This document shows positions 2,952 through 22,447 of a stretch of 31,976 nt of DNA, piece by piece. A program made the position numbers and the translations under genes. Position 1 is the first letter of the stretch. The number at the start of each line of letters is the position of its first letter. The notes below the pieces were generated by a model. That model searched no databases and was not told where the DNA came from. It saw only the letters and a program-made list of their open reading frames with translations. The stretch is from a virus, in IMG/VR virus record IMGVR_UViG_3300030118_001803, positions 1 to 31,976 of that record. One strand, 5' to 3'.

Positions 2952-3112
2952 TGAAAAATGTAATAGAATATCACGATAGTGGTGATGAAAATGATAGAGT
3001 TCGCATAGCAGAATCATCTGAGATGATTTCTAAAGAAACTATAGAAGCTATCAATGAAAGAAATAAATTACGAGCTGAAATAGAAGAAGAAGAAGATGAG
3101 AATGATGAGTAA
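2951..3112 (+). CDS. Tiny acidic protein, 53 residues
   Basis: A 53-residue frame (starting MKNVIEYHDSGDENDR) joined by a one-base TAATG overlap on both sides, to the phosphoesterase before it and the large terminase after it. The C-terminal half is a predicted helix ending in a run of Glu and Asp (EIEEEEDENDE). Perfect coupling on both flanks is the main evidence for a real gene. The product is strongly acidic, has no membrane segment and fits no family I recognise. It could be a small terminase accessory, a DNA mimic, or mainly a translational linker. Confidence 0.7.
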   Translation: MKNVIEYHDSGDENDRVRIAESSEMISKETIEAINERNKLRAEIEEEEDENDE

Positions 3113-4680
3113 TGGCTAATATTAATAGTCAGGATGTTAATGAAGCCGAAAGAGTATTAGAATTAGCACAAACTGATTTAATCGCATTTGGAAAACTTTT
3201 CCTTCCTGGAGATTTTGGTAAATCAGAATCACCATTATTTCACTATGAGATTGGTGATGCATTATTAGAAACTACTACTAAAGCATTGGCATTAATTTTG
3301 CCACGAGGTAGTGGTAAGACACAATTATTTAAAACTTTTTTAATGCATAAGATATTATTTAAGCCAAAAGATGATTTAATGTTTATGGCTTGGGTATCTG
3401 ACAACCATCGCAAGTCTATTCTTAACTTGCAATACATTAAACAACATTTTTCATCAAATGAAATGATAAAATATTATTTTGGTAGTGTTGTAGGAGATAA
3501 ATGGACAGAAACAGATATTGTAACTAGCACAGGTGCTAAATTAATAAGTCGTTCTAATTTATCTAGTGTAAGAGGTGAAAACTATCTAGGTAAAAGATAC
3601 GATATAGTCGCACTTGATGATACAGAAAGTGAAAGCAATACAGTTACACACGATGCAAGAGAAAAAATTAAAAACATTGTATATAATGGTGTAAAACCTG
3701 CGCTTGATTTACATACAGGTAGATTAATATTTGCAGGAACACCTGTACATTTTGATAGTTTATGTCAAAACATACTAGATGGATATGCAAAAGCTGATAA
3801 TAAAAGTGATTATACTTGGGATGTTATAAGTTATAAGTCTACACAGCCTGAAATGGATGGTGGGGTGCTTTGGAACTCTTATTTTCCTAGAAAAAGACTT
3901 GACTTAATGAAAAAAGAGTATGAAGAAGCAGGTAGAATGAATGGTTACTATCAAGAATATGAACTTGAGGTGCAAAACGAAGACGAAGCAGTATGGGGAA
4001 GACAATATATAAAATATTGGAAAGGGTATTATTTACATGAAGAGGGTATTAACTTTATTGTTATTGATGGGGAAAAAATACCCGTCAATACCTTTATTGG
4101 TTGCGACCCTGCAACTGATATTAATACTAAGACTTCTGATTTTTCAGTTATTATGGCTGTTGCAGTAACTCCTGAAAATGAAGTATATGTGTTAGAGTAT
4201 GAAAGACATCGTTCAATACCTACCCTAGCAGGTCGTGATGGTAATGATAACATAGTAGGTAAAAAGGGAGTCGTTGACTATATTATGGAGATGCATGAAA
4301 AATATCATTGTATATCTTCTACTGTAGAAGATGTAGCTATGAATAGGTCAGTATTTCAATCGCTAAATGAAAGACGTAGAATAGAAAATAAGTTTGATGT
4401 TAGCGTTATTTCTGAAAAACCTGGGGGTAGAGAGAAGAGAAATAAGATATATTCGGGTCTTTCAGGTCGTTTTAGTACAGGAAATATACATTTACGGGAA
4501 AATATGTTTGATTTAGAGCACGAAATTGTTACATTCGGTGCAAGAATGGCTCATGATGATACAATAGAGACATTGTTTTATGCACTTTTACACGCTTTTC
4601 CTCCAAATATGAAGCAGGAAAAGAAAACAAGAGAGTGGTATACACCTAAAAAGAAAGCTAAAAGCTGGATTACATCATAA
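3112..4680 (+). CDS. terL: Terminase large subunit
   Basis: A 522-residue DNA-packaging motor that pumps the genome into the prohead and cuts it. The ATPase half shows a Walker A motif PRGSGKT (64-70), a Walker B DIVALDD with E172 following (164-172), and a coupling motif FAGTP (207-211). The nuclease half has an RNase H-like fold with GCDPATD (D332), a second acidic strand TVEDVA (E406/D407), and HDD at 481-483 as the third metal-binding site. The length is normal for the family. It starts in a TAATG overlap with the tiny acidic ORF and is followed by AAGGAG for the next small gene, so it sits in one polycistronic unit with portal and small terminase. All key residues are present. Confidence 0.95.
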   Translation: MANINSQDVNEAERVLELAQTDLIAFGKLFLPGDFGKSESPLFHYEIGDALLETTTKALALILPRGSGKTQLFKTFLMHKILFKPKDDLMFMAWVSDNHRKSILNLQYIKQHFSSNEMIKYYFGSVVGDKWTETDIVTSTGAKLISRSNLSSVRGENYLGKRYDIVALDDTESESNTVTHDAREKIKNIVYNGVKPALDLHTGRLIFAGTPVHFDSLCQNILDGYAKADNKSDYTWDVISYKSTQPEMDGGVLWNSYFPRKRLDLMKKEYEEAGRMNGYYQEYELEVQNEDEAVWGRQYIKYWKGYYLHEEGINFIVIDGEKIPVNTFIGCDPATDINTKTSDFSVIMAVAVTPENEVYVLEYERHRSIPTLAGRDGNDNIVGKKGVVDYIMEMHEKYHCISSTVEDVAMNRSVFQSLNERRRIENKFDVSVISEKPGGREKRNKIYSGLSGRFSTGNIHLRENMFDLEHEIVTFGARMAHDDTIETLFYALLHAFPPNMKQEKKTREWYTPKKKAKSWITS

Positions 4681-17433: not shown

Positions 17434-19733
17434 TGCCATATATAGGACATAATCCAACAAATGCAGGTAGTTTTATTTTTCTTGATGATGTTGCGTCAGG
17501 ATTTAATAACTCTGAAACTGATTTTACATTACAAGTTGGTGGAGTATCAGTAACTCCTAATACACAAAATTTATTAATAGCACTAGATGGTGTTATTCAA
17601 CAAGCTCCTGATGCGTACACAGTTTCAGGTTCTACTATATCTTTTACTGCAGCTGTACCAAGTGGTACTGATTTTTATGGTATTCTTATGGGTCAATCTG
17701 CTAGTATTGGTTTAGGTACAATAGGTGCAGATGAATTAAAAATATCAGGCAATGGTACAAATAATCAACTTATTAAAACTGATGGCGATGGTACATTTAG
17801 TTATATAAATCAAAACTCAGTTACTGCTTCTACTGCAGCTACATTAGCTACAGCAAGAACTATAAATGGAGTTTCTTTTGATGGTAGTGGTAATATAACA
17901 GTTACTGCTGATGCAAATACTTTATCTAATACAACTTTAAAAAGTACAGTAGTTAGCAGTTCACTTACATCAGTAGGAACTCTTAGCTCATTAACTACTT
18001 CAGGAAATGTTGGAATAGGTATGTCGCCTGATATGCCTTTAAATGTAAAAGTTGCAACAAATGAAGTTTTAAGAGTAAGAAGTGATAGTGGAGTTCAATT
18101 AACTGCTAGAAATGAAGCTAATTCTTCTGATGTTGCGATGTTATTAAGAGCAAGCTCTTTTACTTTTCAACAAGGCAATGTTACTATCTCAAATGACCTT
18201 GGAATAGGCGCAGCTCCTAGACAATATTATTCACTTGATGTATATCAATCAGATAACTCTGCTATATTTGGGTTGCGAAGCAATGCTAATGCTTGTACAA
18301 TATATACTCAAACAGGTAATGATGTAACTGGTCAAATGGAATTTTCTACATCACAAGGATGGATAACAACTAGAACAGCTAGTCCTTTAAAATTAGGTAT
18401 AAATAACGTCCCAAAAGTAACTATTGGAGCTGATGGTCATACTACTTTTGCAGGCAGAATTACACTATCAAATGATGGAAGCGATAATGGATTATTTATG
18501 GGTGGAGGGTGGCAAATATTTGACAATGCTAGTGAAGCTCATGGGACTACAGGAGATTTAATATTTTATCATGGTGCCTCAAGAATACGTATGGCTGACG
18601 ATGGTGGTTTTAAAATTAAACAAGGTACAGCAGGTTCAATAGCTAAAGGTTTTAGTATTGAAAATGCTGGAGATACAAATTTAGCAGCAGCAATATTTGA
18701 AGAAAATACTAACCCTACAACTGGAGAGTTAAGACTTTATTCAGGTGGTTCTGAAAAAGTTTATTTAAGAGCAAGTAGTAATAGCAGTCATGCATTTTGG
18801 TTTAAAGGTGGGCAAATGCAAGATATAACTGCTAACAATACAGGTATACAATATAGGGCTAATTGGGATACAGGGTTTTTAAATAGAATAGATAATAACT
18901 TTGATGGAGCAAGTGCTGCTTCATCTTATATGAGATTTAAAGTTGCTAGTGGCGCAGGTAGTCAAAATACAGCATTAACTTTAAAAGGCGATGGAACTAT
19001 AGCAGTTTCTGCAGATACATCAGCATATGCTGCAGTAATTCAAAATAATCAAGGAGATGGTGCAGTATTAGATTTATATGCATCAACATCAGATGACCAT
19101 GCTTTTGACCCAATATTTAAAGTTAGAACTGATGCACAAGATTTATTTATGATTGATAATAAAGGAAATTGGTATTCAGGAGATAACTTTACATCTAATC
19201 CATGGGATTCATCAAGTGGAGAAGGAGGTCTTTATTTTCAAACAGGTTATAATAATAGTGGTCAAACTTTTGCTATTGCAAATAACCAAGATAGAGGTTA
19301 TGCAGTTATATATTGTAATGCAATTAATGCAGATGCATCAGATGGACGACATATTCAATGGATGAATGATGGGACACCTGCAGGTCATATACATTTTGCT
19401 TCTTCAAATAGCGTTGCCTACAATACAACACAATCAGATAAAACTTTAAAAAAGAATTTTGCTGATTGGACAGAAAATATATTAGATAGCTTTGATAAAA
19501 TAAATCCACAATTATTTCATTTTAAAATTCAAAAAGATAGTGAGGAAAAAGTTAAAGGTTTTATTGCTCAAGAAATGGTTGACAAATTTCCTGAAGCATA
19601 TCCAATGGGAGCATATGGAGAAGGAGATGATAAAGAAACAAAATATCATTTTAATCCATCAGGTATGGTTGTTTATTTAATGAAAGCAGTAAAAGAGCTT
19701 TCTGATAAAATTAAAGTTTTAGAGGCTAAATAA
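17433..19733 (+). CDS. Tail fibre with S74 self-cleaving chaperone
   Basis: A 766-residue fibre beginning MPYIGHNPTNAGSFIFLDDV, overlapping the previous gene by one base (TAATG). Residues 1-90 have a strand-rich attachment domain with LLIALDGVIQQAPDAY. A long Ser/Thr/Asn-rich shaft follows with a SSLTSVGTL segment shared with the next fibre. The C-terminal 99 residues form a peptidase S74 intramolecular chaperone: SDKTLKKN at 668-675 contains the Ser668 and Lys673 pair of this family, followed by the conserved HF.IQ, VKGFIAQE and VVYLMKAVKEL helix pattern. The chaperone helps the trimer fold and then cuts itself off before Ser668. The residues needed for self-cleavage are present. Confidence 0.92.
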   Translation: MPYIGHNPTNAGSFIFLDDVASGFNNSETDFTLQVGGVSVTPNTQNLLIALDGVIQQAPDAYTVSGSTISFTAAVPSGTDFYGILMGQSASIGLGTIGADELKISGNGTNNQLIKTDGDGTFSYINQNSVTASTAATLATARTINGVSFDGSGNITVTADANTLSNTTLKSTVVSSSLTSVGTLSSLTTSGNVGIGMSPDMPLNVKVATNEVLRVRSDSGVQLTARNEANSSDVAMLLRASSFTFQQGNVTISNDLGIGAAPRQYYSLDVYQSDNSAIFGLRSNANACTIYTQTGNDVTGQMEFSTSQGWITTRTASPLKLGINNVPKVTIGADGHTTFAGRITLSNDGSDNGLFMGGGWQIFDNASEAHGTTGDLIFYHGASRIRMADDGGFKIKQGTAGSIAKGFSIENAGDTNLAAAIFEENTNPTTGELRLYSGGSEKVYLRASSNSSHAFWFKGGQMQDITANNTGIQYRANWDTGFLNRIDNNFDGASAASSYMRFKVASGAGSQNTALTLKGDGTIAVSADTSAYAAVIQNNQGDGAVLDLYASTSDDHAFDPIFKVRTDAQDLFMIDNKGNWYSGDNFTSNPWDSSSGEGGLYFQTGYNNSGQTFAIANNQDRGYAVIYCNAINADASDGRHIQWMNDGTPAGHIHFASSNSVAYNTTQSDKTLKKNFADWTENILDSFDKINPQLFHFKIQKDSEEKVKGFIAQEMVDKFPEAYPMGAYGEGDDKETKYHFNPSGMVVYLMKAVKELSDKIKVLEAK

Positions 19734-21373
19734 TGGCGTTAACTAAAATAAAATTAGATTCATTTGTATCAGGTAATTTACCTGATGCTAATATACCTAA
19801 TGATATTACTATTGATACTGCTTCAGCAGTTCCTGCTAGTGGTTTAACGGGAAATACTTTAGCAAGTGGAGTAACTGCAAGTTCGCTTACTTCAGTTGGT
19901 ACTCTTGCAGGGTTAGCTATATCAGACAATACTACAATTTCAGGAGATAACAAGTCTTTAGACGTTAGAAGTGCAGATTATTCTAATGTTTATATAGGTT
20001 CAGCAGGCTCTAGTGGAGCAGGTTTAGATAGAGGATTAATTGTTTTAAGAGAAAATGGCAGTAATAAAACTTTATTATATGGAGATGGTTCTGCTGAATT
20101 TGCAGGAAATATACAAACTACTGCTATAGGTATTGGTAAATCAGCACAAAGTGGTTATGAATTTGATATGGAAGCTGCTAGTGGTAATGCTAATATGAGA
20201 TTAAAAGCTACAGGCACAAATCAAGGTATTAGAGTAGTATATGACCATCATTCAGGAGATACAGCAAAAATTGATTTTCACAATAGTGGTAACTCTAGCA
20301 CACAAATTGTATCAAACGAGATAACCAATGGTTTAATATTTAAAGTAGGTGGCACAGGTAGTTCTAGTAAAATAGATGCTTTAAAAATAGACAGTTCAGG
20401 GTACACGCACATAACAGAAAGGCTTGTACACTCTGGAGATACAGATACATTTATAAGATTTACAGATGATGCTATAAATTTTTCTGCTGGGAATACGACT
20501 CCTTTAGTTCTTGCACCAACATCTGGAACAGGAATGACAGTTGGTGGAAATGCTACTTTTTATGGAAATCAATTATTTTATCCTAGTGCAGGATGGAATA
20601 CAGCTAATATAGCTTTTGGTAGTGCTAATTCAGGATTTAGTTCTAATAATACAGGTGCTAGAATAACAGTTCCTTTACATGCTACAGGTGGTGCAGCACA
20701 TGGTTCATTTAAATTTTATACTAACTCAGGAGATAGTGAAAAATATTCTTTACTTTTATCTGAAGCAGGGCACGTTGAATGTCAACAAAAACTTTATGTA
20801 GTTGCTAATTATTCAGGTCAATTTGGTACAGAATTGTATAATCAAACTGCTACAGGGCATGGATTAAAAGTTAGAGGTGGTAATTCATCATCACAATATG
20901 CTCTTTATGTAACTAATTATGACCAAACTGTTGCTTTACTTTCTGTAATGGGCGATGGGTCAGCTACTTTAAAAAGTAATTTTACTGCTCAAGGTGGCGT
21001 TGTAGATGGTGACTCAGGGTTAAAAACTCAACAAGCAGAATTTAAAAGATTGTCTAGTCAAAGTTTTAGTAATGGAAACTTGCATGATTTAACGCAAGTA
21101 CACCAAAGACCATTTATAGTTAAAGTAGAAGACTCAGCAGGAGGTTTATCTACAATGGGATTTCCTATCGGAGGTTCAGGTATTGCTTACAATTGGTCTA
21201 TGTTTGATTCTGATAGTAACACATGGTTTAGCAATCAAGCAACTATAACATCAACAGGAACAAGTGGTAATACATATCATTTTACTTTTAACACAGGTAG
21301 TGGAGTAATGAGAATACAAAGAACAAGCGGTAGTTTAAGTTTTACTGTTAGAGTTTATCAAATAGCTGAATAA
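19733..21373 (+). CDS. Tail fibre, 546 residues
   Basis: A 546-residue fibre overlapping the S74 fibre by one base (TAATG). The N-terminus (MALTKIKLDSFVSGNLPD) is a common short attachment module of marine phage fibres. The shaft is Ser/Asn/Gly-rich with ASSLTSVGTLAGL in the first 70 residues, also present upstream. The C-terminal about 120 residues form a strand-rich head (FIVKVEDSAGGLSTMGF... to FTVRVYQIAE) with a similar VED...G and FTVR ending to the 574-residue fibre. No S74 domain is seen. It is probably a second receptor-binding or accessory fibre. Confidence 0.78.
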   Translation: MALTKIKLDSFVSGNLPDANIPNDITIDTASAVPASGLTGNTLASGVTASSLTSVGTLAGLAISDNTTISGDNKSLDVRSADYSNVYIGSAGSSGAGLDRGLIVLRENGSNKTLLYGDGSAEFAGNIQTTAIGIGKSAQSGYEFDMEAASGNANMRLKATGTNQGIRVVYDHHSGDTAKIDFHNSGNSSTQIVSNEITNGLIFKVGGTGSSSKIDALKIDSSGYTHITERLVHSGDTDTFIRFTDDAINFSAGNTTPLVLAPTSGTGMTVGGNATFYGNQLFYPSAGWNTANIAFGSANSGFSSNNTGARITVPLHATGGAAHGSFKFYTNSGDSEKYSLLLSEAGHVECQQKLYVVANYSGQFGTELYNQTATGHGLKVRGGNSSSQYALYVTNYDQTVALLSVMGDGSATLKSNFTAQGGVVDGDSGLKTQQAEFKRLSSQSFSNGNLHDLTQVHQRPFIVKVEDSAGGLSTMGFPIGGSGIAYNWSMFDSDSNTWFSNQATITSTGTSGNTYHFTFNTGSGVMRIQRTSGSLSFTVRVYQIAE

Positions 21374-21381
21374 GGATTTAT

Positions 21382-21711
21382 ATGTCAGTATCATATGAAG
21401 AAGATTTAAAAGATATACAAGTAGTTAAAAAAGGCAATTTAGAAGATGTAATTGTAAGTGTTAAATGGGTATTAACTGCTACACATAGCGATGGTAGAGT
21501 TCAAATTAGCGACCAAGTTGTTTTTTTAGACGAGCCTGACGAAAAAACATTTTCAGAGTATTCATCTTTAGCTAAAGAAGAAGTTAGAGAATGGATTAAA
21601 AAATATATTACTGATGATATGATTAAAAATAGAAAAGAAGGCGTAGAAGCAATTTTTGAAGAAAATTTAATATTTGAACAACCAAAATCTAAGGAAGCAC
21701 CATGGAATTAA
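21382..21711 (+). CDS. Fibre-adjacent protein, 109 residues (unknown)
   Basis: A 109-residue protein between the fibres and the lysis genes, starting MSVSYEEDLKDIQVVKKG with an AAGGATTT-type weak site. Residues 20-50 are strand (VIVSVKWVLTATHSDGRVQI) and residues 60-80 are helical with YSSLAKEEVREWIKKYI. The layout (V-x-x-V-x-W strands, then an F..Y..L....V..W helix) is like small proteins found next to fibre genes in marine phages (similar in outline to the DUF7936 type), but I am not sure of the family. Its last codons overlap the start of a Cys-rich mini-gene, which takes its ribosome site from this gene's 3' end. Confidence 0.6.
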   Translation: MSVSYEEDLKDIQVVKKGNLEDVIVSVKWVLTATHSDGRVQISDQVVFLDEPDEKTFSEYSSLAKEEVREWIKKYITDDMIKNRKEGVEAIFEENLIFEQPKSKEAPWN

Positions 21712-21752
21712 AATGTGATTGCGACTGTTGTATGTGTGAATGTTGTGGATAA
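21702..21752 (+). CDS. Cys-rich peptide, 16 residues (MELKCDCDCCMCECCG)
   Basis: A 17-codon frame from ATG (21702) to TAA (21750-21752) encodes a peptide with seven Cys in sixteen residues arranged as C-x-C-x-CC-x-C-x-CC. An AAGGA ribosome site (21691-21695) lies six bases before the ATG. The Cys pattern is like a metallothionein or zinc/copper-binding peptide, with Asp/Glu and Lys between the Cys residues; no family is known to me. The ORF overlaps the last 10 bases of the preceding gene and ends on the start region of the next membrane protein (TAA lies within GTGGATAA). It is too short for standard gene calls and is nested in the longer membrane-protein frame, so it would normally be missed. 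Confidence 0.62.
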   Translation: MELKCDCDCCMCECCG

Positions 21753-22026
21753 AAAATATTACTTTAAACCTAATAAGTATTTTTATCGTGCTTGGGCTTA
21801 TATGCTGTTTGCTTGTATATTCCTGTGGGCTTGTGACAATTTTTATATTGGAAAAAGTTCTGAAGAAATAGAAAAAGATTTATATGAAAGTATGTGGGAA
21901 GTTGATAGTATCTTAAAAAGAATACAATATCAGCTTGATACAATTAATATAAACAATGAAAATATTATCATTCTAAAAGAAATAGAATGGAATAATAAAA
22001 ACGAAGAAAACATAAAAAATAACTGA
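21745..22026 (+). CDS. One-helix membrane protein or lipoprotein, 93 residues
   Basis: The frame is open from GTG at 21715, but a GTG at 21745 gives MDKKYYFKPNKY and overlaps the stop of the Cys-rich peptide, fitting translational coupling; the longer start would only add the Cys-peptide sequence in another frame. Residues 16-30 are hydrophobic (AWAYMLFACIFLWAC) with a lipobox-like LWAC followed by Asp, so either a membrane anchor or a lipoprotein signal is possible. Residues 37-80 are a charged helix (EEIEKDLYESMWEVD...LKEIEW). This shape is like small lysis accessory (spanin-type) proteins. It is placed among lysis genes. No spanin sequence motif is shown, so the role is inferred. Confidence 0.55.
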   Translation: MDKKYYFKPNKYFYRAWAYMLFACIFLWACDNFYIGKSSEEIEKDLYESMWEVDSILKRIQYQLDTININNENIIILKEIEWNNKNEENIKNN

Positions 22027-22039
22027 GAAGGAGTTAGAT

Positions 22040-22231
22040 ATGTCTGAGAAGAAAGGCGTAAAAGTAAGTGAAATTGATGCTAAAATAAAACAGCATGAAG
22101 AAAACTTAAAAAAAGTAACTGATGAATTACAACAAATAACACAAATGCAGCAAGAAAGAACTACACAAAAAATAGCTCTTGAAGGTGCAATAGCAGGATT
22201 AAAAGAACTTGCAAGTGAACCTGCCAAGTAG
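22040..22231 (+). CDS. Small coiled-coil protein, 63 residues
   Basis: A 63-residue, soluble, almost all-helical protein (MSEKKGVKVSEIDAKIKQHEE...) with an AAGGAG ribosome site. Hydrophobic positions about every three to four residues (I12, I16, L23, V26, L30, I33) form a coiled coil through residue 55, followed by a short GAIAGLKEL segment. It has no membrane segment. Between the one-helix membrane protein and the holin candidate, it could be a soluble lysis regulator or spanin partner. That is inference from position; I know no family. Confidence 0.6.
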   Translation: MSEKKGVKVSEIDAKIKQHEENLKKVTDELQQITQMQQERTTQKIALEGAIAGLKELASEPAK

Positions 22232-22303: not shown

Positions 22304-22447
22304 TTGGATAGTTTAAAAACTGTAGGTAATGGAGTTTTAGGAGTAGGCGTTTGGTGGGTAAATTTACCTATGGTGCTTCAAACTTTAGTTTCCGCAGCAA
22401 CATTAATATATATAATAATAAAGATAAAAAATGAATTATCTAATTAG
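22304..22447 (+). CDS. Holin candidate, 47 residues, TTG start
   Basis: A 47-residue membrane protein from a TTG start with AGGA nine bases upstream (22291-22294), so it is missed by ATG-only searches. It begins MDSLKTVGNGVLGVGVWWVN and has a hydrophobic stretch across residues 9-40 (through LQTLVSAATLIYIIIKI) with a short Lys/Glu/Asn tail. The Gly-rich start, WW pair and Lys-flanked helix are typical of small phage holins that make pores in the inner membrane. It lies in the lysis cassette upstream of the endolysin. The stop lies inside a 27-residue overlapping ORF. I place confidence in a membrane protein and less in holin function. Confidence 0.65.
   Translation: MDSLKTVGNGVLGVGVWWVNLPMVLQTLVSAATLIYIIIKIKNELSN

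Follow-up and report, generated by a model that had tools for sequence, protein, structure and literature searches.

A predicted polycysteine micro-gene is an accessory cassette directly before small membrane-protein genes in uncultured phages

The 31,976 nt stretch of viral DNA analyzed here (IMG/VR record IMGVR_UViG_3300030118_001803, hereafter the window) contains at positions 21702–21752 of the plus strand an open reading frame of only 16 residues, MELKCDCDCCMCECCG, which raises the question whether so small a frame is a gene and, if so, what its product might do. An earlier note on this DNA had pointed out seven cysteines among the 16 residues, a ribosome site of its own and a stop codon touching the start region of the next gene. 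All three features were confirmed. Translation of 21702–21752 yields the pattern C-x-C-x-CC-x-C-x-CC, and the motif AAGGA is located at 21691–21695 (plus strand), 6 nt 5' of the ATG, with a pairing energy of -6.0 kcal/mol to a generic anti-Shine-Dalgarno (SD) sequence. The TAA (21750–21752) overlaps by 8 nt with GTG 21745, at which the next gene probably starts.

The ATG of the mini-ORF lies inside the 3' end of a 109-aa gene (21382–21711, plus strand; TAA at 21709–21711) that belongs to DUF7936 (Pfam PF25590, E = 4.6e-7, 30.9 bits against a cut-off of 27) and weakly matches PHROG 7802 (E = 0.0098). It is followed by a GTG-started, 93-aa lipoprotein-like gene (21745–22026, plus strand), the start of which was assigned by homology: its relatives (L004–L010) start at the position that corresponds to GTG 21745 (MDKKYYF.. 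beside MNEEIKKF..), from which the overlap of 8 nt results. GTG 21715, the start that according to the earlier note would hide the mini-ORF, is merely the longest mechanical start; it finds no support among the homologues and is probably wrong. The product of the next gene comprises a single hydrophobic segment with a Cys at its end (..WACDNFYIGKS..) that is invariant in 13 aligned relatives, which by eye suggests a lipoprotein. The same module continues with a small, soluble-looking gene of 63 aa (22040–22231, plus strand) without a strong PHROG or Pfam family match. A TTG-started, small membrane-type ORF of 47 aa (22304–22447, plus strand) matched neither PHROG nor Pfam; it falls below the length cut-off of the first ORF list and resembles by eye positions 3867–4007 of L310 (reverse-strand numbering). 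Further upstream, a 546-aa gene (19733–21373) that comes after a tail-fibre-like gene matched nothing in PHROGs, in Pfam or among annotated phages. DUF7936-type genes were recognized by profile match in the window (21382–21711) and in L175 (4746–5087), and by eye in L037 (1663–2091) and L149 (4750–5088). Since their place varies among phages, either ahead of the lipoprotein-like gene or behind the module, gene order is fluid.

Could such a frame arise by chance? Across the 32 other window genes listed, Cys accounts for 41 of 9,746 codons. The window holds one ATG-started ORF of at most 20 aa with at least 5 Cys and at least 35% Cys, while 0.010–0.017 are expected on both strands of simulated windows (Markov order 3 and 2). 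ORFs with at least 6 Cys (at least 40%) or at least 7 Cys (at least 43%) did not occur in 300 simulations per Markov order (600 in total).

Relatives of the lipoprotein-like gene allowed a comparison of the same junction. The sister record L001 shares about 1 kb at 97% identity and encodes the same peptide base for base; it is too close to be informative on conservation. Seven further, diverged loci of the next gene were found (42–53% identity in the best segment), six of which are readable at the junction, while L009 ends there. L007 possesses a free mini-ORF, MKDCNCSCSCCNE, at the same junction although its upstream gene is a different one (900 aa), and it is the sole informative diverged counterpart of the window's copy at this position. 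The five other loci retain just an ending with 2–3 Cys: the upstream ORF terminates in ..CNCE in L004, L005, L006 and L008 and in ..CKDCC in L010. In L004 this ORF encodes a tail fibre that carries an S74 chaperone domain (PF13884), and the others are similar by eye. Cys codons are found directly before the next start in 8/8 readable loci of this subclass (the window, L001, L004–L008 and L010). The difference between L007 and L008 at the junction resembles an in-frame deletion. Among the readable upstream ORFs of the best 80 of 136 lipoprotein-like loci, none ended in C-x-C or CC; two (L345 and L382) end in ..SCVLYCG and many like ..VEALENA.

The earlier note had proposed to look for Cys-rich short ORFs at the same spot in related phages, and such ORFs were found in numbers. 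Two pattern scans of viral contigs yielded mostly background. In the first, covering at least 119 stretches, 24 of the 128 matches listed were in frame; in the second, covering at least 120 stretches, 28 of the 118 matches listed were in frame and 15 of these were family members, three loci already known being left out of this count. The exact signature CCCCGCKK followed by a stop gave 0 matches in genome_contigs. Two loci reached by pattern scan, L139 and L037, carry the mini-ORF after the lipoprotein-like gene and one more gene, followed by a small membrane-type gene (MTKPxGQDSSLNISLP..). A homology scan with the protein of the latter, of which the best 80 of 203 loci were examined, revealed a mini-ORF overlapping the start in 19/80, comprising 19/40 loci of the GQDSSLN type and 0/40 of the more diverged ones. 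For the lipoprotein-like family (best 80 of 136 loci) the mini-ORF was present in the available flank in 28/80, including L037. Some contigs occur in both 80-locus sets, and many of the flanks are truncated.

After pooling and removal of identical sequences, 35 sites contained an ATG-started ORF of at most 20 aa with at least 5 Cys and at least 35% Cys, and all of these (35/35) were on the coding strand. The Markov simulations and this strand bias (35 forward, 0 reverse before pruning) led us to reject a chance origin. Looser thresholds gave 25 forward and 11 reverse ORFs (at least 5 Cys, at most 25 aa, no cut on the Cys fraction; some in reversed loci) or 28 forward and 6 reverse (at least 4 Cys, at least 30%, at most 40 aa). 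Pruning left 30 distinct sites with 23 peptides of 12–17 aa, 5–8 Cys and 36–62% Cys, for example MKNDCCCCCCGCKK and MSDCCCCCGCKK; the window and its sister L001 count as two of the 30, and L282 was included via the pattern alone.

The five sites removed (MVLYIMCDCD..; L180, L181, L193, L409 and L416) had been considered as moved family copies, a reading we rejected because their Cys frame arises when a hydrophobic gene is read out of frame. This gene, MTWFYTLC(V)(I/T)AIA.., yields CDCDCDCCCG-like strings out of frame and is a natural false positive in Cys-motif scans; it occurs in L180, L181, L193 (about 4279–4443), L179, L395, L403, L404, L408, L409, L415 and L416. Val/Ile/Ala-rich DNA can thus mimic the Cys pattern. 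The match MKSCDCCPP in G009 was likewise rejected, its TAA being out of frame. Beyond the 30 sites, L082 harbors on its reverse strand (810–854, reverse-strand numbering) the free-standing ORF MCTCENCNCDCCCK with its own ribosome site in an unrelated neighbourhood. It stops 19 nt ahead of the next ATG with no overlap, and its neighbour has no relative in annotated phages; judged by its sequence, it may be a genuine uncoupled relative. L101 (1556–1624) encodes MNYCDCDCCKSKGSCCLKEREG, which with 22 aa exceeds the family length limit; it has an SD, overlaps its neighbours and is found in a different gene context. In L310, the gene that follows the mini-ORF is itself followed on the reverse strand (2309–2680, reverse-strand numbering) by a 123-aa protein that by eye has a signal-like start and a thioredoxin-like look (..FPSVVLFRNGKK..).

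Several aspects of the 30 sites point to selection on the Cys frame. The stop of the mini-ORF overlaps the next start at 30/30 sites, by 4 nt (20 sites), 8 nt (9) or 11 nt (1), an arrangement that would favour coupled translation. The SD before the mini-ORFs is usually good (median -5.9 kcal/mol), with L375 and L385 as exceptions. In 23 nearest-neighbour comparisons among the 30 sites, 61 of 97 differences fell on third positions of the Cys frame; these comparisons were counted partly in both directions, so that the 97 differences are not independent. Synonymous differences amounted to 49/97 in the Cys frame vs 16/97 and 30/97 in the other two frames; Cys is preserved in the relatives while its codons change. 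Pairs of Cys codons can differ at the third position only, and the count of 47/47 for them is therefore no evidence. Besides Cys and the first Met, the residues are K, D, G, N, S, E or T in 151/154 cases and hydrophobic in 3/154, compared with 41% hydrophobic residues in the module's proteins and 32/95 in 14 Cys-rich ORFs that the same thresholds selected from 217 other loci, a control set that includes MCTCENCNCDCCCK of L082 and so maybe a true relative. Since the 30 sites share ancestry, this residue bias does not represent 30 independent events. The end residues K, D, N and G may reflect what the stop/start overlap and the SD require of the DNA, and purine triplets inside the Cys run may, by eye, act for the next gene as a weak ribosome site, a possible reason for some of the Gly and Glu codons.

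The genes downstream differ as well. Their N-termini vary (GQDSSLN.., SEDAQIH.., SEEKILGSKF..), and the mini-ORF can be followed, apart from the lipoprotein-like gene of the window, by small membrane-protein genes of at least three kinds; the start in L385, MANSINSNSEIH.., is perhaps related to the SEDAQIH.. type. Thus, the mini-ORF persists while its neighbours change.

Closely related phages differ in its presence. L170 and L151 share 93% and 95% identity over the 60 nt on the two sides of the junction and differ by exactly 35 nt, which extend from the ATG of the mini-ORF up to, but not including, the next ATG; L149 compares with L170 in the same way. The empty junction of L151 and L149 is also present in L162. 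The record of L151 (35,124 bp) carries a 123-nt direct terminal repeat and is therefore probably complete; across it no ATG-started ORF of the family type was found, only one TTG-started ORF with 4 Cys. The record of L177 (34,441 bp, 99-nt repeat) comprises one family member, at this junction, besides a Cys-rich ORF with a GTG start on the opposite strand that resembles chance. Five further records with empty junctions, possibly partial (G001, G002, G004, G007 and G008), contain no ATG-started family ORF. The earlier note had held that homologous phages which keep the neighbouring genes without the ORF would refute the mini-gene. This is the case in part, as such phages do exist, namely those with empty junctions, including the apparently complete L151, and the five loci with 2–3 Cys. 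However, the ORF is lost precisely, and Cys is retained with changed codons in other relatives; consequently, we regard the gene as accessory, not as spurious. The idea of a deliberate mini-gene is thus supported outside the window by 30 sites, 23 peptides, mostly third-position drift and exact presence/absence, and the frame 21702–21752 is almost certainly a real, selected gene.

With regard to the genomic setting, T7-like phages show the gene order fibre-holin-spanin-terminase in their late/lysis clusters. The module of L178 lies immediately before a large terminase gene (PHROG 38, E = 9.7e-79), and one of its members weakly matches an Rz-like spanin (PHROG 739, E = 2.6e-4), with PHROG 1009 of unknown function matching slightly better (E = 2.2e-4). 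Since this order recalls that of T7-like phages, we call the module late and probably involved in lysis. In contrast, the terminase-like gene of the window (3112–4680, weak Pfam matches) is located far upstream of the micro-ORF. Other module members gave no named PHROG or Pfam match, the module's proteins no match in annotated phages and its membrane protein no relative in genome_contigs. Portal and terminase had no relatives or distant ones in annotated phages, with 22.8–25.6% identity for the terminases among the matches listed.

What might the gene do? On an even balance of confidence, our preferred reading is that the frame encodes a thiol-rich micropeptide which is translated in coupling with a late membrane-protein gene, rather than a leader that senses cysteine. 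The peptide would be made late in infection alongside the membrane protein whose start the micro-ORF overlaps, and would act in trans as a small soluble thiol ligand with metallothionein-like chemistry, either in metal binding or in redox reactions. In the case of a leader, scarce charged Cys-tRNA would cause pausing on the Cys run and thereby alter re-initiation at the overlapping start; synthesis of the membrane protein would then track cysteine supply. We consider this possible, though somewhat unlikely. It fits the invariant stop/start overlap, the lack of SD pairing ahead of GTG 21745 (+0.4 kcal/mol), the Cys codons that end the upstream ORFs of L004, L005, L006, L008 and L010 at the same junction, and the published precedent of mycobacterial polycysteine attenuators, as far as PMC9094748 and PMC13236596 present it. 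However, no conserved RNA or attenuator structure was detected: folding was no better than in shuffled sequences in seven stretches (z -0.6 to +1.3; two of them overlap in the window and one is an empty junction), and 15 aligned sites gave no consensus pair. Neither is the rarer Cys codon TGC preferred, with 46/197 in the mini-ORFs vs 67/203 in the module's genes. The SD of the next gene resembles that of 19 of 61 unoccupied loci (medians -3.7 and -2.9 kcal/mol, p = 0.96), and a pure leader does not need hydrophilic residues between its Cys. Residue make-up and absent RNA structure lean toward a peptide product.

If only a short overlapping ORF mattered, as in a plain translational coupler, the Cys would be an accident of TGT-rich DNA. 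The overlap at all 30 sites would suit this improbable reading as well, and the hydrophobic frame of a related module gene indeed gives CDCDCDCCCG out of frame. Yet Cys is retained across 23 different peptides with hydrophilic spacers, relatives without the mini-ORF carry no substitute ORF at the junction, and the 600 simulations lacked ORFs with at least 6 Cys (at least 40%). Highly improbable in our view is that the Cys run forms the C-terminal tail of the upstream protein, attached through a frameshift in the window and fused directly in the five loci with a CNCE or CKDCC ending of the upstream ORF. Mini-ORFs start at an ATG of their own and usually have a good SD, with the two exceptions named; the upstream genes differ among loci, and a slippery heptamer before the DUF7936 stop was not found by eye. 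Returning to the micropeptide, a wider picture, more tentative still than the leader, would be a family of metal- or redox-binding cassettes (12–17 aa, 36–62% Cys), wired by stop/start overlap into late, probably lysis, membrane genes, through which infection would end at a time set in part by the thiol, metal or cysteine status of the host.

With 12–17 codons, this selected gene family sits under the usual annotation cut-offs, and its exact presence or absence in closely related phage pairs is a clean natural experiment on so small a gene. Should it bind metal, the peptide would be remarkably small for a natural metal-binding gene product; if cysteine sensing proved true, late membrane proteins of phages would be tied to the sulfur supply of the host.

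A literature search, the coverage of which lay mostly outside subscription papers, showed, among the papers listed, none that deals with polycysteine micro-genes of phages or of their lysis modules. Polycysteine short ORFs are described in mycobacteria, where they are leaderless and were proposed to respond to cysteine supply (Canestrari et al., 2020, Mol Microbiol, as cited in PMC9094748 and PMC13236596); the genes after them have roles in cysteine metabolism (as cited in PMC13236596). Going by these citing articles, both systems comprise a short, Cys-codon-rich ORF directly 5' of another gene. In contrast to the mycobacterial ORFs as presented there, the phage ORF is by its sequence not leaderless, with AAGGA 6 nt before an ATG that lies within the preceding gene, and it is followed by small membrane-type genes with no matches to cysteine-metabolism families. 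At the phage sites, no RNA structure was detected. With a leaderless start and cysteine-metabolism targets both missing, we do not class the phage micro-genes with the mycobacterial attenuators. Metallothioneins are built from C-x-C and CC motifs with Lys, Asp, Gly, Ser and Asn as spacers and hardly any hydrophobic residue, over a length of tens of residues. While the predicted phage peptides are far shorter (12–17 aa), they share with metallothioneins the C-x-C and CC motifs, a Cys content of 36–62% and a near lack of hydrophobic residues (3/154 of the others).
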